Assembly (NCBI GenBank): GCA_035650475.1 | Contig: DASRHP010000014.1 | Coordinates: 1 to 64,000 of the forward strand | Origin: Candidatus Binataceae bacterium | Lineage (GTDB): Bacteria; Desulfobacterota; Binatia; Binatales; Binataceae | Direction: 5' to 3' | DNA: 64,000 nt | In this document: one piece after another, positions 53,534 to 62,459 of the stretch | How positions within the stretch are numbered: the stretch's first letter is position 1 | Layout of the letters: every line of letters starts with the position of its first letter | The notes under the pieces: generated by a model | Seen by the model: the letters and a program-made list of their open reading frames with translations, nothing else | Told to the model about the DNA's origin: nothing | The model's database searches: none | Program-made: the position numbers and the translations under genes

Positions 53534-53617
53534 GCGAGAGTGGCGGAACGGCAGACGCGCCGGACTTAGGATCCGGTGCCGCAAGGCATGGGGGTTCGAG
53601 TCCCCCCTCTCGCACCA
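53534..53617 (+). tRNA. tRNA-Leu (anticodon UAG)
   Basis: A complete class II cloverleaf: acceptor stem GCGAGAG pairs with CTCTCGC, D-arm with GGCGGAACGGCA, anticodon stem CCGGA/TCCGG with loop CTTAGGA (anticodon TAG), a long variable arm, T-arm with GGTTCGAGTCC and the encoded CCA at 53615-53617. Residue identity is by anticodon. The 289 bases before it, from 53245, show no gene that I can support. Confidence 0.95.
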
Positions 53618-53982: not shown

Positions 53983-55896
53983 TCAGGCGCGGCGCAACGC
54001 CACCTGGGGAGGCGGCGCGGCAAGCGGCGCCGGCGCGATCCCCTGGCTCAGGCACATCGCGTGCAATCGCCCGTGTTCGCGCGCGCACAGCTCGTCCCAG
54101 TTTCCCGACTCGGCCACCGCGCCGCCCTCGATGACGTAGATCAGACCCGCATAGCGCACGGCGGCGATGCGATGGGCGATCATCACGATCGTCGTCTCGC
54201 CGCGCAGCGCGTCGACGGTGGTAAGGATACGCTGCTCGGTATGCGCGTCGAGACTGTTGGTCGCCTCGTCAAGGATCAGCAGGCGCGGACGGCGCAGCAG
54301 CGCGCGCGCGAGCGCAAGCCGCTGGCGCTCGCCCTGCGAGATGGTCGCGCCGCGCTCGCCAATCGGGGTATCGAGCCCCTGCGGCAGGGCGTCAACGAAG
54401 GCGGCCGCCTCGGCTAGGGCGAGCGCCGCGCGCAACTCCGCCTCGCCCGCATCGGGCCGCGCCCACAACAGGTTGTCGCGCACGGTGCCGCGGAAGAGAT
54501 GGGTGTCCTGGGCGACGTAGCCGACCTGCGCGCGCCACGCGCGGGCGCGCTCTTGGTCGAGCACCGCGCCGTCGATCGTCACTCGGCCGGCGGCAGGCAC
54601 GAGCAGCCCGCACATCAGGTCGGCGATGGTGCTCTTGCCGGCGCCCGAGGTGCCGACCAACGCGACGAATTCGCCCGCCGGAACGACGAGATCGAGCTCA
54701 CGTACGGCGGGCGGCTTGTCGGGCTGGTAGGAGAAAGAGACTCGCTCCAGGCGCAGCGCGCCTGCGAACTCGAGCGCCGCCGGCGGCGCGCCCGCCGGCT
54801 CGGCCTCGGCTGCGCATCGCGCGGTCAGCCCCATAACGTTTTCGAACGCGGGCATCGCCTGCACCAGCTCGCGGTACAGGTGATGGCAGAGCATCACGCT
54901 CGGGGTGACCCGCACAAACATCCCGAGCAGGAGGAGCACGGCGAACGGGGCAACCTCGAGCATGCGGAGCGCGACGTAAATCAAGACGGCGAGGATCGCC
55001 ACCGAGCCGAGCTCGAACAGCGTGCCCACGGCCGTCCCTTGGCGCATGATCTCGACGCCGCTGCGCGCGACCTCAGCGCTGACGTTGGCGAAAGACTCGA
55101 AGTTGCGCTCCTGCGCGCTGTACATCCGCGCGGCCTTGAGGCCCTGGAGATGCTCGACGGCGGCGGCGTAGAGGTCGCGCGTGCGGCGGGAAAAATCGGC
55201 GCCCGCGTCATGGAGCAGCCGCGTGCGCCGACGCAACATCAGGACCAGCAGAATTCCGCAGCCGACCACCAGCGCCGTCGTCGGCGCCGAGACCACCAGC
55301 GCGACCGCCAGGTAGAGCGCAAGCAGGAGCAGCCGCGAGACCAGCCCCAACAGTTGCGAACCTGCGACTTCCGCCCGTTCGACCTCGGCGGTCAGCGCAT
55401 GGGTGAGGTCGGCCGAATGCAGCCGCGAAACGAACAGCCATCGCGCGTTCGCGATCGCATGGTACAGCCGGCGGCGGAGCAACAGTCCGAAGCTCTGCTG
55501 GATCGAGTAGAAGGTGACGTTCTGCCATTGGCCTAGCACAGCGCGCGCTCCGACCAGCCCCGCAAACACAATCAGCAGAACGAGCAGGCTCGGATGCAGG
55601 CCGAGGGCCTGGATGGCCCCCGCAATCGTGCGTTCGTAGCGGCCAAGCGAACCTTGGGCGCCAAGGTCAAGCCCCGCGACCTGCAATAGCGGGAGCAGCA
55701 GCGCAAGGCCGACACCCTCAGTCAGCGACAGCAGAAGCATCAGGGCGAGCGCGCCGGCGAGCCGGAGGCGTCCGACTTCGAGCAGCGTCCTGATATAGGC
55801 AACGAGGGTCTTTGTCACGAGGGATTCACGCTGCCTGACGGCCGAATCGGCGTGGTCAGCGTCGCGGAACCCGGGCAGGGAGCTGGCTGCCGTCAT
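53983..55896 (-). CDS. ABC exporter of the lasso-peptide cluster
   Basis: The 637-residue half-transporter has a six-helix membrane domain (from LRLAGALALMLLLSLTEGV) and a C-terminal ATPase with Walker A GTSGAGKST, the signature ISQGERQRLALARAL and Walker B LLILDEATNSLD. The start overlaps a small upstream ORF by four bases. It lacks a C39 peptidase domain, as expected, because the B2 protease cuts the leader. As the last gene of the minus-strand arm it probably exports the mature lasso peptide. Confidence 0.9.
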   Translation of the reverse strand: MTAASSLPGFRDADHADSAVRQRESLVTKTLVAYIRTLLEVGRLRLAGALALMLLLSLTEGVGLALLLPLLQVAGLDLGAQGSLGRYERTIAGAIQALGLHPSLLVLLIVFAGLVGARAVLGQWQNVTFYSIQQSFGLLLRRRLYHAIANARWLFVSRLHSADLTHALTAEVERAEVAGSQLLGLVSRLLLLALYLAVALVVSAPTTALVVGCGILLVLMLRRRTRLLHDAGADFSRRTRDLYAAAVEHLQGLKAARMYSAQERNFESFANVSAEVARSGVEIMRQGTAVGTLFELGSVAILAVLIYVALRMLEVAPFAVLLLLGMFVRVTPSVMLCHHLYRELVQAMPAFENVMGLTARCAAEAEPAGAPPAALEFAGALRLERVSFSYQPDKPPAVRELDLVVPAGEFVALVGTSGAGKSTIADLMCGLLVPAAGRVTIDGAVLDQERARAWRAQVGYVAQDTHLFRGTVRDNLLWARPDAGEAELRAALALAEAAAFVDALPQGLDTPIGERGATISQGERQRLALARALLRRPRLLILDEATNSLDAHTEQRILTTVDALRGETTIVMIAHRIAAVRYAGLIYVIEGGAVAESGNWDELCAREHGRLHAMCLSQGIAPAPLAAPPPQVALRRA

Positions 55897-55997
55897 TCCA
55901 GCAATTCAGCGTATTTAGTTTCTCTTAGATAATCAATGCATGCATAGCCGAGCCAAATCGAGTCATGCCTAAGCGCGACCTCCGCAGCAGCGCTCAT
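55893..55997 (-). CDS. 34-residue small ORF coupled between lasso B2 and exporter genes
   Basis: The frame begins at ATG 55997-55995, overlapping the B2 stop (TGATG), and ends in a TGA that overlaps the exporter ATG (ATGA). Such perfect joints on both sides favour translation. The peptide starts MSAAAEVALRHDSIWLGYAC and is acidic at the end (KYAELLE), without a signal peptide or membrane helix. Local DNA is more AT-rich than its neighbours, and codons such as CTA, AGA and AAA are used. I know no family for it; it could be a chaperone or anchor for the exporter, or a chance frame. Confidence 0.5.
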   Translation of the reverse strand: MSAAAEVALRHDSIWLGYACIDYLRETKYAELLE

Positions 55998-56449
55998 CAC
56001 GGCCTTCCGGTCGAGGCCATCGGACGGTAGCGGTCGAGGTCGAAATCGCCGATCAGCACCTTGCCGTCGGGAGCGACCAACCATGCATGGGCCGCCATGT
56101 TGCGGGCGCCGTCCCTGGCGACGCCGATTCGCAGGTCGCACGCATAACCCGCACGCAGCATCAGCGCCTCCGCCGCGAGCGCCTGCACAAGACAGTTGCC
56201 GCCGCCTGGAATCGCACGTCCGGCGGCCTCGACCGCCCAGATGATGCGCTCGGCAGGGGGCCGTAAACAGGCAATATTCGATGGCGCCGCGCGCAGGCGC
56301 CGTTGACTGCCGACAAGGGCGCCGCGGGCGGTTCGCAGCGGCATCAGCTTGACCATCACGCGGGCGGCGGCGACCGCCGTCGCCGCGCGCATCAATAGGC
56401 GGCGATCGGAGGAAGGGAGGCTAAGAAAGGTGGCGAGCCGGCGCCGCAT
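55997..56449 (-). CDS. Lasso-peptide leader protease B2 (transglutaminase-like)
   Basis: From ATG 56449 (an upstream TTG at 56506 is possible) the protein has 150 residues. It begins MRRRLATFLSLPSSDRRLLM, as lasso B2 proteins do, and has the papain-like triad in PGGGNCLVQALAAEAL (Cys86), NMAAHAWL (His121) and IGDFD (Asp135). It removes the leader of the precursor with the help of B1. It is in the minus-strand arm between the nucleotidyltransferase and the small ORF. Confidence 0.9.
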   Translation of the reverse strand: MRRRLATFLSLPSSDRRLLMRAATAVAAARVMVKLMPLRTARGALVGSQRRLRAAPSNIACLRPPAERIIWAVEAAGRAIPGGGNCLVQALAAEALMLRAGYACDLRIGVARDGARNMAAHAWLVAPDGKVLIGDFDLDRYRPMASTGRP

Positions 56450-56540
56450 CACGTGCTCGATGATCTCCGATCGCCGATCGCCCGGCAAGCCACGCGCTGC
56501 CGCCAAAACGGAATCGGACCAACCATGATGCCGCCGCGCA

Positions 56541-57833
56541 TCAGCGTGCCCTGCGCTGCGTCACTGAATCCGCGCGCCAGAGCCCGCGCATGGCGGCGCT
56601 GCTCCCTTTCAGAGCAATCCGCAATGGACGCAGCAGGTAGTACAACGGTGCCAGGGCGCGCGGCAGGCGTGCGAGTTCGCGATCGTCGGCGCCCGGGGTA
56701 AGCGCGCGGGCGGCGAGGTAGCGGATTCGCGCGCGAGGCTGTTCAATCATCCGCAGCGGAATCGACCATCGCTGATAAAGCCGTGGCCCGCGCGCATCCG
56801 GATCGGCCGCATGCGCGATGAAGGTGCGCGCGGCGCGAATTACCGCGGGTTCGCTGCGCGCCTCCACAAGCGCTTCCTCGGGCACCTCAGCTTCGAGCAG
56901 GTCGTGAACGAGCACGACTCCCAGCAAAAGCATCCGGCGCGCCCCGACGCGCGCGGCGCGCTCGCGCAGCGGCTGCCAATCAACGGGCGCGGCGCGCATC
57001 AACTGCGCGACGTCGCATACGCCGCTTAGCGTTTCCCATCCGTGCCGGGCACCGTGCGCGCAGAGGTAGAGCAGATGATCGTCGGGGGCAAGCGTGCGCA
57101 CGCCGCCGCCTTCCAATTCGACCGTTATCGCGCGCTGCCAAAGCTCGTCGCCGCCCAATGCCAGCGGAAAATATGGCTCGGCGAGCCGCCAATGGAGATC
57201 GATCGCCGCAAACGATCCCGGCTTCGCGAGCGAGGTTTCAAAGACGCCACTTCGCCCGATTTCCCCGACTCCGTATCCAGCAGGCGCGACGTAGCCGTCG
57301 GCGGTCAGGAGCCTGACCGCCTCGGCCGCCTGGTCCTCGCGCACCAGAAGGTCCAAATCGATAAACTGCCGGAGATTGGAGCTGCCATAAGCATGGACGG
57401 CCAGTGCGGGCCCCTTGAACGCGAGCGCCCGGATGCCGGCCGTCGCCATCAGCGCGTTGACGCGGACCAGCTCGCGCGCCAACGACGCGTTGCGCAGGGC
57501 ATTGGCCTGGAACTGCCGGCGCATCGGCTGAATCGCCTCAGCCGCCGCTACCCCGTCGAGCGTCTGGCTCAGGCTCTTGTACACGAGCGGCAGGATCGCG
57601 TGGCGCGAGGCAAACGCCGCAAGCGCGAGCCAGTCGATTGCCCCGCCGCCAAGGAGCTCCCGCGCTCGGGCCGCGCGATGTCCCGTCACGGCCAGCGCCG
57701 CACAACAGAGCGCTAGCTCCGCCTCGCGCCCGGGGCCAATCGCATGGGATGACCGACGAGCCTGAACTTCGCTCGGCGCATCCAAGCTGCGCGTCCTTGC
57801 GGTCAGTTCCGTGTCGTTCGCGACAGCAGGCAC
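56541..57833 (-). CDS. Nucleotidyltransferase-fold protein of the lasso cluster
   Basis: The 430-residue protein carries the NTP_transf_5 type core: ALAFKGPALAVHAYGSSNLR and FIDLDLLVREDQ with the Asp-x-Asp metal pair, then IDLHWRLAEPYFPL. Members occur in some lasso-peptide clusters, possibly as tailoring enzymes, but their product is not established. It is the first gene of the minus-strand arm and starts back-to-back with the B1 gene across about 360 bases. Confidence 0.85.
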   Translation of the reverse strand: MPAVANDTELTARTRSLDAPSEVQARRSSHAIGPGREAELALCCAALAVTGHRAARARELLGGGAIDWLALAAFASRHAILPLVYKSLSQTLDGVAAAEAIQPMRRQFQANALRNASLARELVRVNALMATAGIRALAFKGPALAVHAYGSSNLRQFIDLDLLVREDQAAEAVRLLTADGYVAPAGYGVGEIGRSGVFETSLAKPGSFAAIDLHWRLAEPYFPLALGGDELWQRAITVELEGGGVRTLAPDDHLLYLCAHGARHGWETLSGVCDVAQLMRAAPVDWQPLRERAARVGARRMLLLGVVLVHDLLEAEVPEEALVEARSEPAVIRAARTFIAHAADPDARGPRLYQRWSIPLRMIEQPRARIRYLAARALTPGADDRELARLPRALAPLYYLLRPLRIALKGSSAAMRGLWRADSVTQRRAR

Positions 57834-58070
57834 ATCGCGCCTCTTTGCCCATTGTGCCTGAAACTCTGCTCCAAAGCTTGCGCTGACGGATCAGGAGCGC
57901 CGATTCGGCGATGCGAAACGGGATTCAGGCATCTAGACAGCGAAAGCATAAGTCGGCACACTCAGCCGTTAGATGCCGAGTCTAGCGAAGGACCGGAAGG
58001 AGAGCTCGAAGGGGGACCGAGAAGTCGGAAGTCGAGAATTTGGCGTTCAGTTTAGCTCAAAACCGTCAAT

Positions 58071-58099
58071 TTGACTAAACGTGTTCTATACGATATTAA
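58071..58099 (+). promoter_or_regulatory. Candidate sigma-70 promoter of the lasso BCAK arm
   Basis: TTGACT (58071-58076) and TATTAA (58094-58099) are separated by 17 bases; the surrounding DNA is more AT-rich than its flanks. A start near 58106 gives a leader of about 85 bases to B1. The remainder of the divergent gap 57834-58191 should also hold the promoter of the other arm; I cannot pick it out. Confidence 0.45.
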
Positions 58100-58191
58100 G
58101 ATAACGGATACTCCTCGTCACCTCTAAGTGCTCGGCGCAACCGCGGGAGGAGTCAGGAGCTCGGAGGCCGATTAACACCGGCTTAGACGCA

Positions 58192-58479
58192 GTGAGCACA
58201 GGCAACCACACTATCCGCGCGCGGTTATCTGCCGACGTGATGAGCGAGCGCTTCGGCGACGAGATCGTATTGCTCAACCTTAAGACCAACCGCTTTTTTT
58301 CGCTCAATCGCACCGGCGCCAGACTCTGGGAACTGCTGGCGGCGGGGGAGCGGCTCGAGGCAATCGAAGAGCAGCTCTGCCGAGAATTCGAAGTTGACCG
58401 GGCGCAAGTCACGGTGGAGGTCGAGCGGATGGTGGCCTCGCTCAACAAAGAGCAGCTATTGGAGCTGGAGGAAGGCTGA
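58192..58479 (+). CDS. Lasso-peptide B1 (PqqD-family RiPP recognition element)
   Basis: A 95-residue protein from GTG 58192 with SERFGDEIVLLNLKTNRFFS and LNRTGARLWELLAAGERLEA, the PqqD-like winged fold used as RRE. It binds the precursor leader and delivers it to B2 and the cyclase. The start lacks a strong ribosome-binding site; ATG 58240 is too late for the fold. It ends five bases before the cyclase gene. Confidence 0.92.
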   Translation: MSTGNHTIRARLSADVMSERFGDEIVLLNLKTNRFFSLNRTGARLWELLAAGERLEAIEEQLCREFEVDRAQVTVEVERMVASLNKEQLLELEEG

Positions 58480-58484
58480 CGCCG

Positions 58485-60398
58485 ATGGCAGTAAGGGCAG
58501 CCGCGCTCCGACCGGAGTTGAAAGAGCATGGGTGGCCGCGATGGGTCGCGGCGCTCAGCCGCGGCATCGCCAGCGAGGTTCCGGGCCATCGGCGGATGGC
58601 CTTGGGTCCCGCGCGCGCCGAACGACGGCTCAACCTGTTTTGCCAGCTCGGAGAACCCGAACCGCTGGTCGCGGCCACGGGCAGCTGCGCCGTTGTGCTG
58701 GAAGGCTTCCTTTACAACGGGGCCGACCTCGCTGGCGAACTCGGCACCGACGAGGCCGACGATGCCGAGACTATACTGCGGGCATATGAACGCTGGGGCG
58801 AAGACCTGCTTAACAGGCTACGCGGGATCTTCGCCCTCGTGGTCTGGGATGCGAGTCGCGACCTGCTGTTGTGCGCGCGCGACGCGATGGGCAATCATCC
58901 GTTGTTCTTCTCCAGCGGCGCAGGCGACCTGATCGTTTCGACCTCGCTCGAAGCCGTGGTGCGCCATCCGTCTGTCTCCCGGGCGATTAATCGAGCTGCG
59001 GTCACCAGCTATTTCCTGGATTTCTTCCCCAAGCTCGGGGAGACCTTTTACGCCGAGGCGGAAAGGGTTCCGCCTGGACACGCCCTCGCAGTGAGCCGCG
59101 GAGAGCGGCGGGTTTATCGTTATTGGAATCCGCAAGCGCCAAAGCTCGGCTCAGGCTGGGTGACCGAAGACGAGGTCGAGCGGTTCAACGAGCTATTGTC
59201 GCGTGCGGTCGAGCGGTCTTTGGAGTTCGGCCCGTTGGGAATTTATCTCAGCGGCGGACTTGATTCCGTCAGTATCGCCGCCGTCGCCACCGACCTCAGC
59301 CGCGAGCGCGGGGTTCCGGCGCCGCGTGCTCTTTCGCTGATTTTTTCGACCCCTGAAGCGAATGAAGAGCGGGTGCAAAAGGCGGTGGGAGAACGGCTCG
59401 GCCTGGAGCATGACCTCGTGCCTTTCAGCGTCGCGGTCGGATCGCGGGGGATTTTGGGACCGGCCGTCGAGATGAGCGCGCACTCACCTCATCCGCTGCA
59501 GAACTACCTGCTGAGCGCGTACAACTATCTCGCGAGTCTGGGCCAACAGAACGGATGCCGGGCGATCCTGACTGGCACCGGTGGCGACGAGTGGCTGGGC
59601 GTCTCGCCCTTTCTGGCCGCTGATCTGATCGGCTCATTGGATGTTGTCGGGCTTTACCGTTTGTGGAATCAAACCCGTCGTTCGTTCAGGGTTGGACAGT
59701 GCGCCTATGCATTCCGCCTGCTGTGGAGCTTCGGGCTGCGCACCCTGCTGCGCGACACGACGCTGCGGACGCTCGAGCGGCGCAGTCCGTCAACTTTCGC
59801 TCGGATCAAGCGGAATCGGTTACGCAGGTTATTGCAGCCTTGGCAAAGGGTCGATGCGGAACTGTGGAGCAGCGTCAGCTCGCGCGTCGAGGCGGTGGAA
59901 ACCGATCGGATCAGGGGGCTCGCCGAATGCGGAACCTATTTTGCGGAGGTGCACCGCGCGCTCGACCATCCGCTGGTCTCGTGGGAGATGGAAGAGTTGT
60001 TCGAAAACGGCAAGCGCTTGGGCCTGAGGTTTCTGCACCCCTATTTTGACCGCGACCTGGTCGAGCTGCTCTACCGCACGCCCCCCGCGCTGCTCAACCG
60101 TGGCGGACTGACCAAGGGTCTGGTGCGCCAGACGGTAGCCAAGCGGTTTCCTGGCCTTGGTTTCGACCAGCAAAAGAAGGTGCAGCTCACAAAGTTTTTT
60201 CCGTCGGTGATACGCGCCGAGGGGGCCGAGGTATGGAAGAGATTAGGTGGCGCAAAGGCCCTCATCGCCCTAGGGCTCGCCGAGCCGCAGCAGGTTGACT
60301 CTTGGGTGAGTACCGTGTTCCAGTCCGACCATCATCCAAAGGCCTTTCGGGTGTGGCAAATGATGAGTATGGAGTCGTGGCTAAGGGCGCGATTGTAG
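58485..60398 (+). CDS. Lasso-peptide cyclase (asparagine-synthetase-like, C)
   Basis: The 637-residue protein has an N-terminal glutaminase-type fold without the nucleophilic Cys at position 2 (MAVRAA), then an AsnB synthetase domain with the ATP-binding SGGLDS (256-261) in GIYLSGGLDSVSIAAV. GTGGDEWLGVSPFLAADL and ELLYRTPPALLNRGGLTKGL follow. It activates a Glu or Asp side chain with ATP and lets the N-terminal amine close the macrolactam ring. It lies between B1 and the precursor gene in the usual arrangement. Confidence 0.93.
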   Translation: MAVRAAALRPELKEHGWPRWVAALSRGIASEVPGHRRMALGPARAERRLNLFCQLGEPEPLVAATGSCAVVLEGFLYNGADLAGELGTDEADDAETILRAYERWGEDLLNRLRGIFALVVWDASRDLLLCARDAMGNHPLFFSSGAGDLIVSTSLEAVVRHPSVSRAINRAAVTSYFLDFFPKLGETFYAEAERVPPGHALAVSRGERRVYRYWNPQAPKLGSGWVTEDEVERFNELLSRAVERSLEFGPLGIYLSGGLDSVSIAAVATDLSRERGVPAPRALSLIFSTPEANEERVQKAVGERLGLEHDLVPFSVAVGSRGILGPAVEMSAHSPHPLQNYLLSAYNYLASLGQQNGCRAILTGTGGDEWLGVSPFLAADLIGSLDVVGLYRLWNQTRRSFRVGQCAYAFRLLWSFGLRTLLRDTTLRTLERRSPSTFARIKRNRLRRLLQPWQRVDAELWSSVSSRVEAVETDRIRGLAECGTYFAEVHRALDHPLVSWEMEELFENGKRLGLRFLHPYFDRDLVELLYRTPPALLNRGGLTKGLVRQTVAKRFPGLGFDQQKKVQLTKFFPSVIRAEGAEVWKRLGGAKALIALGLAEPQQVDSWVSTVFQSDHHPKAFRVWQMMSMESWLRARL

Positions 60399-60441
60399 CG
60401 GCGGATTTCGGATTTTGATCCAGATGGGTAAGGAGCTACTT

Positions 60442-60627
60442 ATGGCAAAGGGTCAAGGCAGAGGGTCGGGAGCCACACAGGCCGAGGCTGAGAAACAGCC
60501 TTGGCAGAAGATGGAACTGACCTACGTCGGCGATGCGGCCGAGCTGATCCAGGGTGGTGGAGGCAAGCTCAGTATTCAGGCTGATGATACCGGAGATGCT
60601 CCCCGCAAGCCGAAGGGGCTGGGCTAA
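60442..60627 (+). CDS. Lasso-peptide precursor (A)
   Basis: ATG 60442 follows AAGGAG by six bases and gives 61 residues; a TTG at 60415 is a longer but weaker start. It opens MAKGQGRGSG and the leader holds WQKMELTYVGDAAELIQ, close to the YxxPxLxxxG recognition motif of lasso leaders, with Trp for Tyr and Met for Pro. The rest is GGGGKLSIQADDTGDAPRKP and a short KGLG end. Asp48 is the ninth residue if the core starts at Gly40 and the eighth if it starts at Gly41; Asp49 is the ninth from Gly41. No Thr stands before the presumed cleavage site, where the known leaders have one. Confidence 0.82.
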   Translation: MAKGQGRGSGATQAEAEKQPWQKMELTYVGDAAELIQGGGGKLSIQADDTGDAPRKPKGLG

Positions 60628-60645
60628 GGCTGCCTGAGGGCTTTC

Positions 60646-61530
60646 ATGCCCCCCGGACCAGCGTTTATCGCGCGGCGAGTGGAGTTTGCAATCGCCGCAG
60701 CGACGCCTGTCCGCGCACGCCCGCCCGACAGCGCCGCCGTCGAGGTCTGGCGCGACGTGCGCGGAATCGCGTGCGCCTTCAGCTACACCGCCGGCGGCTA
60801 CGCCTGGATGGAGATGCCGGGCGCGGCCACGTTCCGCTTCGATGCGCGCCGCCTGAGCGTGACCGCGTATCCGGAACCGGGCGTCCAGTGCGGGCTCGTC
60901 GAAGCGGCCTATCGCCACGCCGCGCTGCCGGTGGCGCTGCATTACTTCGGAGCCGAAGTTCTGCACGCAAGCGCGATCCGCGCGTCCACCGGCGTGGTCG
61001 TGTTCTGCGCGGTTTCCGAAACCGGCAAATCAACGATGGCGGCGGCCTTCGGCGCGCGCGGCTATCCGCTATGGGCCGACGACGCGGTCGCGATCGAGGC
61101 CGAGGATGGCGCGCCGAACAAAACGATCAGGCTGCCGTTCGACCTGCGGTTGCGCGCGGCCTCGGCGGCTCATCTGGGTCGCGCGCCGGCGCGCGCCGGC
61201 GCCGCGCATGAGTTCGCCACCAGCCCGCTGGCGGCGCTGTGCGTTCTGGAACGCGCGGAGCCGGTGCGAGGCGACGTGAGCGTCGAGCGGCTTTCCGCGG
61301 GCCGCGCGCTCGCCGCGTTGCTCCCGCATGCCTTCTCTTTCAGCCTTAAGGACGAGGCGCGCAAGCGCCTCACGCTGCGCCGCTACCTTCATCTGGCCGC
61401 GCGCACACCCGTCTTCCGCGTCGCGTTCGCGGCGGGATTCGAGCGGCTGCCCGCGGTGCTCGACGCAATCGAGCAAACCGTCGCCGGCTTCGCGCCCGAC
61501 GAATCCGCGCGCGAAGCCGCCGCCCTCTGA
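60646..61530 (+). CDS. HprK-like kinase of the lasso cluster (K)
   Basis: The 294-residue protein matches HPr-kinase-like tailoring enzymes of lasso clusters: LHASAIRASTG, a P-loop FCAVSETGKST (Lys128) in which the usual first Gly is Ala, and YPLWADDAVAI with two Asp (145-146) of the catalytic site. The related paeninodin enzyme phosphorylates a C-terminal Ser of its precursor. Here the precursor ends in Gly, so the target would have to be Ser44, Thr50 or another group. It begins 18 bases after the precursor gene. Confidence 0.85.
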   Translation: MPPGPAFIARRVEFAIAAATPVRARPPDSAAVEVWRDVRGIACAFSYTAGGYAWMEMPGAATFRFDARRLSVTAYPEPGVQCGLVEAAYRHAALPVALHYFGAEVLHASAIRASTGVVVFCAVSETGKSTMAAAFGARGYPLWADDAVAIEAEDGAPNKTIRLPFDLRLRAASAAHLGRAPARAGAAHEFATSPLAALCVLERAEPVRGDVSVERLSAGRALAALLPHAFSFSLKDEARKRLTLRRYLHLAARTPVFRVAFAAGFERLPAVLDAIEQTVAGFAPDESAREAAAL

Positions 61531-61575: not shown

Positions 61576-62459
61576 CTAGCGCAGCCGCGGGCGGACTTCG
61601 CGCTCGAAGCGCTCGAAGAAACCGTCGAAACCGGTGCGCTCGAGCGCGATCGGCGTCACCAGCACTTCACCGACTCCCAGTTCGGCGAACTCGCTGAGAT
61701 AGGCGGCGAGTTCGGCGGGCGGCGCAAGGATTCCGCGCAGGTAGCCGCCCGTTTCGGTCCATCGCTCGGCGAAGCCGACATAGACGCGATGGCTCAGGGC
61801 GAAGCCGTCGAGCGAGCGGCCGCGGGCGGCGGCGAAATCGCGAAGCCACTTCAGCCGCTCGGCCAGCTCTGGCGCGCGCATCCGCGTCCCGTGCCACCCG
61901 TCGCCCAGCTCGACCGCGCGCCTTAGCGCGCGCCGGCTGAGCCCACCGACCCAGAGCGGGATCCGCCCCGCGGCCGGCGCCGGCGCGCAGCGCATCGCGT
62001 CGAAGTTGAAGAACTCGCCATGGAACGAGGAAAGGTCGCTGGCCCACATCGTGCGCATCAGGCGGATCGCTTCGTCGCAGAACGCGCCGCGCCGCTCGTA
62101 CGGCGCGCCCAGCGCGCGGAACTCCTCGACCATCCATCCGCCGCCCACTCCGACCACGAGCCGCCCGCCGCACAGACGGTCGAGCGTCGCGAGCTCCTTG
62201 GCGAGAACGATCGGATTGCGATAGGGCAGCACCAGCACGCTGGTGGCGAGCCGGATTCGGCTCGTCACCGCCGCGGCGTAAGCGAGGTCGCAATCGGCTC
62301 CAGCAGCGTGCCGACCTGAACCGTCGGATGCTGCGCGGGAGTCAGGACGTGGTCGCTGACCCACAGCGAGGCATAGCCGGCTTCCTCGGCGCGGCGCGCG
62401 ACGCGCGCTAGCAGCCGCGGATCGTCCTGAAACTGCGGCAGATGCAGCCCGATTTCCAC
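61576..62459 (-). pseudogene. LLM class oxidoreductase gene with a one-base frameshift
   Basis: The N-terminal part (GTG 62459, MEIGLHLPQFQDD, SLWVSDHVLTP) and the rest (AYAAAVTSRIRLATSVLVLP, GGRLVVGVGGGWMVEEFRAL, IPLWVGGLSRRALRR) are in different frames of the minus strand. The switch is near 62282-62290, where the minus strand reads GCGACCTCGC; one more C would join LEPIAT to LAYAAAV as in the family. The restored product would be 294 residues. It may be a true mutation or an assembly error in a C run. Confidence 0.82.

Follow-up and report, generated by a model that had tools for sequence, protein, structure and literature searches.

Known systems closest to the cluster

In paeninodin-type lasso peptide clusters (PadeK, ThcoK, PsmK/PsmN), an HprK-like kinase with the residues His-Lys-Asp-Asp uses a C-terminal Ser, and the precursor keeps a Thr at position -2 of the leader, Thr(-2), and an ordinary ring. 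The pseudomycoidin system, in which PsmN adds hexoses, provides a precedent for the pairing of kinase and nucleotidyltransferase (PMC9266682). The Bradymonadales bsf system (BsfA/BsfK; PMC10368454) has Ile(-2) in place of Thr, separate B1 and B2, a kinase, and a nucleotidyltransferase, and its kinase modifies Ser3 within the ring instead of the C terminus. We analyzed a cluster related to these systems in Candidatus Binataceae bacterium (Desulfobacterota, Binatia; assembly GCA_035650475.1, contig DASRHP010000014.1), of which positions 1 to 64,000 (64,000 nucleotides) are referred to as the window. To judge from its genes, this cluster (53983-61530) probably makes a phosphorylated lasso-type RiPP (ribosomally synthesized and post-translationally modified peptide).

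Gene calls and domain models showed that the cluster is complete, with seven genes in two divergent arms. The left arm, on the minus strand, contains an ATP-binding cassette (ABC) exporter, the leader peptidase B2, and an NTP_transf_5 nucleotidyltransferase (N); the right arm, on the plus strand, contains the recognition element B1, the cyclase C, the precursor A, and an HprK-like kinase (K). A first-pass annotation had assigned B1, B2, cyclase, exporter, kinase, and NTP_transf_5 protein to these two arms, and all were indeed found in place. The kinase type and the nucleotidyltransferase are those of the paeninodin-type and pseudomycoidin systems, but our precursor ends in Gly. The Ile(-2), the separate B1 and B2, the kinase, and the nucleotidyltransferase are shared with bsf, and we likewise propose an internal kinase target. 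BsfA, which we compared by its published description, has Asp8 and a YxxPxL motif, whereas our precursor has WxxMxL, similar to the WxxPxL of PbaA, and no acid at core positions 7-9. Clusters for linear polyphosphorylated peptides (LPP; PMC13381572) also encode a RiPP recognition element (RRE), an HprK-like kinase, a nucleotidyltransferase, and an exporter, but they have a signal-peptidase-like leader peptidase and no cyclase. Acidobacteriota precursors with Ile or Val at -2 (L130, L143, L144; such precursors were noted in PMC10368454) share the leader end IIQ/IVQ and a Gly-rich core with ours, but have Asp8, and their cyclases fall in another clade. Finally, Thr(-2) lasso clusters of the window's own family contain the closest relatives of its B2, nucleotidyltransferase, and exporter, but they differ by Thr(-2), by an acid at 8 or 9, and by cyclases, B1s, and kinases that belong to other clades.

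The GGGGK-type precursors

The precursor gene (60442..60627, plus strand; 61 aa) is best read from the ATG at 60442, preceded by AAGGAG, and gives MAKGQGRGSGATQAEAEKQPWQKMELTYVGDAAELIQGGGGKLSIQADDTGDAPRKPKGLG. The product has a WQKMEL motif, a GGGGKLS junction with no Thr before it, Asp48 and Asp49, and a C-terminal Gly, as the first-pass annotation had described. It had called this precursor atypical, but several of the features concerned are known from other systems: a Trp-containing motif (PMC13381572), Ile/Val(-2) together with phosphorylation of an internal Ser (PMC10368454), and a kinase with a nucleotidyltransferase (PMC9266682). No Pfam, NCBIfam, or PHROGs model matched the precursor.

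A search of genome contigs with the cyclase led to two Acidobacteriota contigs, L003 and L004 (41-42% identity), each with a GGGGK precursor directly after the cyclase. Models made from the precursor alignment led to L118/L131, L120/L132, and L124/L133 in the phylum of the L004 genome, to L141/L150 and L142/L151 in the class shared by one of these genomes and that of L004, and to L149/L153 in the class of the L003 genome. Every one of these eight homologous clusters was reached through Acidobacteriota. The model E-values ranged from 1e-18 to 1e-31 among the closest members, and two further members had 1e-10 to 1e-13. The most distant precursor, L149, reached only 1.8e-4 alone; it was accepted on the placement of its cyclase, B1, and kinase in GGGGK-type clades. 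The nine GGGGK-type precursors are therefore those of the window, L003, L004, L118, L120, L124, L141, L142, and L149.

The gene order in the homologous clusters is B1-C-A-K as far as the contigs extend, and B2 adjoins K in seven of the eight, while in L153 it precedes B1. Because the same type of precursor occupies the same position in these clusters, the window precursor is not a chance reading frame. Among the sampled genomes of the window's phylum (395), class (148), and family (41), only the window had a GGGGK-type precursor, and no close relative was found in viral contigs and plasmids. That the window lies outside Acidobacteriota is suggested by the two phylum samples, its own and that of L004, which had no genome in common. 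We consider these precursors to be a small unrecognized family; a search of the open literature for GGGGK in a lasso context found none, with an earlier listing, e.g., in large RODEO surveys, being possible. The family would escape mining rules built on Thr(-2) and an acid at 7-9.

The core tails of L141 and L142 (clusters L150 and L151) contain a conserved Cys pair, RCEKPHAEKC and RCEKPHASEC, respectively, which could form a tail disulfide.

Proposed cut site and position of the ring acid

To compare acid positions, we aligned precursors on the leader motif at -17 to -12, using as a comparison set 24 other lasso precursors that these searches had yielded. With this ruler, the WxxMxL of the window precursor occupies -17 to -12, Ile36 is at -2, and Gln37 is at -1. 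The motif follows the consensus [Y/W]xxPx[L/V/I..] taken from PMC13381572, with Met replacing Pro in the window and L003 and Pro retained in the other seven. All nine GGGGK-type precursors have Trp at -17, Ile, Val, or Leu (never Thr) at -2, Gln, Lys, Arg, or His at -1, and Gly, Ser, or Ala at +1, and share a core start of the (G/S/A)GGGK type. An acid was present at core 8 or 9 in 22 of the 24 comparison precursors versus 0 of the 9 GGGGK-type precursors (Fisher p 1.4e-6, a rough guide only, as the sequences are related). In the latter, none is found at 7-9, and the conserved acid is at core 12, or 11 in the AGQN/AGSN pair. The two comparison exceptions, L093 and L095, likewise lack Thr(-2). 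Trp21, Gly30, Gly39, and Asp49 (window numbering) are invariant in the nine. The junction also occurs with ordinary Asp8, in the Ile/Val(-2) precursors of L144 (DIIQ/GGGGMMND, the slash indicating the cut) and L143 (DIVQ/GGGNRAND), and the Thr(-2) precursor of L119 has the same core start with Glu8 (LTT/GGTGKANE).

Because the acid stands 11-12 residues from the expected cut, and not 7-9, either the ring exceeds the known size or the cut is unusual. A cut between Gln37 and Gly38 is indicated both by the ruler and by the Ile(-2) signature, and it is the only cut with which the Ile at ruler -2 agrees with the known Ile/Val(-2) pattern. The reading that we prefer, with a probability of about 0.48, is that the precursor would be cut at Gln37/Gly38, that a macrolactam would link Gly38 to Asp49 (12 residues; 11 in the AGQN/AGSN relatives), and that the kinase would act on Ser44. 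The proposed leader is encoded by 60442-60552 and the proposed core, GGGGKLSIQADDTGDAPRKPKGLG, by 60553-60624, with the codon of Asp49, the putative ring-closing acid, at 60586..60588 (core 12). BsfA, for which cutting after Ile(-2) and phosphorylation of the internal Ser3 have been proven (PMC10368454), speaks for this reading. B1 would bind the WxxMxL motif and present the leader, the kinase would phosphorylate Ser44 of the precursor, and the nucleotidyltransferase may extend the phosphate, after the example of PsmN of pseudomycoidin. B2 would then cut at Gln37/Gly38, with Ile36 replacing the usual Thr at -2, the cyclase would activate Asp49 and join it to the amine of Gly38, and the exporter would remove the product. 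With a 12-residue ring around a tail lacking aromatic plugs, the product may be an unthreaded lariat.

The first-pass annotation had left core start, ring size, and kinase target open and had considered a new lasso product possible, and this still holds, although the homologs narrow the options. Of its two ring-closing candidates, Asp49 is favored by its invariance, while Asp48 is not invariant. The 8- or 9-residue ring that it envisaged requires cleavage within the Gly run or immediately after it, whereas the ruler and Ile(-2) indicate Gln37/Gly38. Homologous precursors with a Thr(-2) cut and a known core, which by that annotation would have refuted its view, were also sought, and none was found.

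Several points weigh against a 12-residue ring. All structurally characterized lasso rings have 7, 8, or 9 residues (PMC13352647, June 2026), and a change of ring size by one residue impairs processing. The spacing from motif to cut varies, the Trp being numbered -15 in the paeninodin-like PbaA (PMC13381572), and the Gly at core position 2, invariant in the nine, would take the -2 position if the cut were at Gly40/Gly41. Moreover, no product of the GGGGK type is known, and the nine precursors are related and not phylogenetically independent. No feature of lasso peptides is constrained more tightly than ring size. A natural cyclase clade whose precursors have no acid at 7-9 would point either to a fold able to close larger rings, which would be useful for engineering, or to leader peptidases able to cut far from the expected site.

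The main alternative, a cut far from the expected site, appears unlikely to us, though it deserves serious consideration. The Gly run would be a leader spacer, and the core would start at Gly41 (9-residue ring to Asp49) or at Lys42 (8-residue ring, with Ser3), released by B2, or by an aminopeptidase that trims the product of an initial cut at Gln37/Gly38; the result would be an ordinary-sized lasso with an unprecedented leader end. This keeps the ring within the known 7-9 range, and a start one residue ahead of the conserved Lys gives rings of 8 or 9 in all nine precursors (L149 needs Asp10, not Asp12), with the invariant Gly of core position 2 then at -2. Measured from the canonical cut, the BsfA geometry of Ile(-2), Ser/Thr3, and Asp8 is found only in part, with Ile(-2) present, Gly at position 3, and Ile at position 8; the Lys42 start is the only one that would reproduce Ser3/Asp8. 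The AGQN/AGSN relatives would have an 8-residue ring from Asn, which has one precedent as ring residue 1 in metanodin, but Lys is not among the N-terminal residues listed in the same paper (PMC12670498). The shifted start also leaves unexplained the Ile, Val, or Leu at ruler -2 in all nine, is picked after the fact to suit the ring size, and is disfavored by the B2s of the window, L003, and L153 lying outside the main GGGGK-type B2 clade. To our knowledge, Gly(-2) has no precedent. Metanodin was also considered as a published match and rejected, its novelty being Asn1 and not ring size.

One lasso-type precursor of the window's own family (L095:10504, minus strand; genome G019) reads ATDLLQ/GPMVSAPYRDLHNDWYTNWPQP, with the first acid at core 10 by the ruler and Leu at -2. 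Its cyclase lies near the GGGGK clade on a long branch, and it could represent a second odd ring or cut.

A separate clade of cyclases

The cyclase (58485..60398, plus strand; PF00733 3.5e-25, PF13537) is of the asparagine-synthase type, with an intact PP-loop (SGGLDS, residues 256-261), and scores 166 of 525 bits, below the NCBIfam family cut-off. Its AlphaFold2 model (mean predicted local distance difference test, pLDDT, 86.8; confident except for residues 1-56) matched asparagine-synthetase-type enzymes, the best being the amidotransferase TsnB9, and also beta-lactam synthetase. The spacing from Glu294 to Pro337 is 44 residues in all eight GGGGK-linked cyclases versus 40-41 in 12 others (+4 aa), and that from Trp414 to Pro435 is 18-22 versus 10-13 residues (+8 to +12 aa), so that both insertions are found in 8/8 and 0/12, respectively. 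The usual N-terminal MSG..HRGPDG part is missing from the GGGGK-linked cyclases (L003 and L150, cut at the contig end, are uninformative there). We regard the window cyclase as lasso-type and as part of a distinct clade with two clade-specific insertions. That this clade makes 11- to 12-residue rings, matched by the insertions and carrying a phosphate on the ring, is a tentative proposal to which we give somewhat less than an even chance.

A Lys is conserved in all nine precursors, one position earlier in L149, and Lys42 to Asp49 spans 8 residues. The cyclase could thus join the Lys42 side chain (or another nucleophile) to Asp49 after a cut at Gln37/Gly38, with the GGGG N terminus left free. 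We consider this highly improbable, since lasso cyclases use the alpha-amine and the Gly run would be left unexplained; we know of no lasso-type cyclase that uses a side-chain amine.

Different affinities of the two arms

In BLAST comparisons, the window cyclase scored 417 bits with GGGGK-type cyclases versus at most 165 with those of ordinary clusters, and B1 and the kinase were likewise nearest to the GGGGK type. The exporter, B2, and the nucleotidyltransferase were nearest to ordinary Thr(-2) lasso clusters of the window's own family, the closest exporters being 46-52% identical. Trees placed the window cyclase in a clade with GGGGK-type cyclases (support 100), its B1 in one clade with GGGGK-type B1s (support 99/99), and nine GGGGK-linked kinases, including the window's, in one group (Shimodaira-Hasegawa-like approximate likelihood ratio test 92). 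A single clade of GGGGK-type B2s and the window B2 was rejected (approximately unbiased test, p-AU 0.0016), with a weaker result when only the six core B2s were constrained (p-AU 0.043). The window B2 groups with own-family Thr(-2) B2s, and the main GGGGK-type B2 clade likewise excludes those of L003 and L153. Inheritance of B1, C, and K therefore follows the precursor type, and that of B2 does not.

These affinities indicate that the cluster is a mosaic with arms of different origin, which the first-pass annotation had overlooked. Since the precursor type accompanies B1, C, and K, and the window B2 is similar to B2s from clusters with Thr(-2) precursors, the cyclase, rather than the protease, seems to be the peculiar enzyme. 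The split hints that the precursor-binding parts (B1, C, kinase) are transferred together and that peptidase and exporter can be exchanged.

A mosaic could also be a non-functional recombinant, with own-family B2, N, and exporter and a foreign B1-C-A-K, or could make only a linear phosphopeptide. The differing affinities, the single occurrence of the precursor type in the sampled phylum and class, and the LPP clusters, which have the same set of kinase, nucleotidyltransferase, RRE, and exporter genes and yield linear phosphopeptides, would agree with this. We judge the absence of a cyclic product very unlikely, however, because all genes are intact with conserved catalytic residues, because L003 and L153 also combine GGGGK-type A and C with B2s from outside the main clade, and because LPP clusters have no cyclase.

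A recent insertion was not indicated by composition, the GC content of the right arm, overall and at third codon positions, being within or near the spread of the window. Integration at the adjacent tRNA-Leu was rejected, as no att-like repeat of the tRNA 3' end was found in the window, and a search for the empty site in same-genus genomes found no synteny. A lasso B2 was present in 24 of 41 genomes of the window's family (G003-G040), many with a kinase and a nucleotidyltransferase, and their precursors end in varied residues. The own-family loci L071, L082, and L086 each have two B1-like genes, and L082 also has two precursors.

The kinase and its proposed target

The kinase (60646..61530, plus strand) has an HprK_rel_A P-loop region and conserved catalytic residues, and found no match in Pfam. 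His107, GKST (127-130, with Lys128), and Asp145-Asp146 are invariant in 19 kinases and correspond to the His-Lys-Asp-Asp of HprK-like kinases. The best PDB matches of its AlphaFold2 model (pLDDT 88.4) were the HprK/P structures 1kkl and 2qmh. A terminal Ser, the target of paeninodin-type kinases, is present in only one of the nine precursors (L142). Ser44 (core 7; codon 60571..60573) is the likely target, because this position is Ser or Thr in 9/9 precursors, with no other Ser/Thr in the cores of L004 and L120, and because the kinase gene is adjacent. Internal phosphosites are known at Ser3 of BsfA (PMC10368454) and Ser3 of LppA (PMC13381572).

Other genes of the cluster and its surroundings

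Besides the cyclase, the cluster has the recognition element and the Cys peptidase of lasso systems. B1 (58192..58479, plus strand) is a PqqD-like RRE (PF05402, 2.1e-16), with TbiB1 (5v1u, 3.4e-14) as its closest solved structure. B2 (55997..56506, minus strand), a transglutaminase-like Cys protease, scored 80.6 bits with NF033537 versus a cut-off of 33, and its Cys105 and His140 are invariant in an alignment of 13 B2s. The nucleotidyltransferase (56541..57833, minus strand; PF14907, 1.8e-60, 205 bits) has conserved Asp159-x-Asp161 and Lys140. The exporter (D gene; 53983..55896, minus strand; ABC_tran 8.7e-34, ABC_membrane 6.7e-09) has no C39 peptidase domain, which rules out double-glycine cutting by this protein. 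Gene orientation defines a divergent intergenic region at 57834..58191, in which no sigma-70 consensus stood out above chance; a promoter and terminator scan gave results at chance level. A PHROGs search, and a PDB sequence search with B2 and the kinase, gave no matches.

Roughly 370 bases separate the tRNA-Leu gene (53534-53617, plus strand) from the exporter gene end. On the other side, a luciferase-like monooxygenase gene (61576-62459, minus strand) is apparently split over two frames, with the N-terminal part at 62265-62459 and the remainder at 61576-62364, owing to a frameshift or an assembly error. Similar genes for haloacid dehalogenase (HAD)-like hydrolases are found near two GGGGK-type clusters (L004:5292-6062 and L132:10358-11074), while none adjoins the window cluster.

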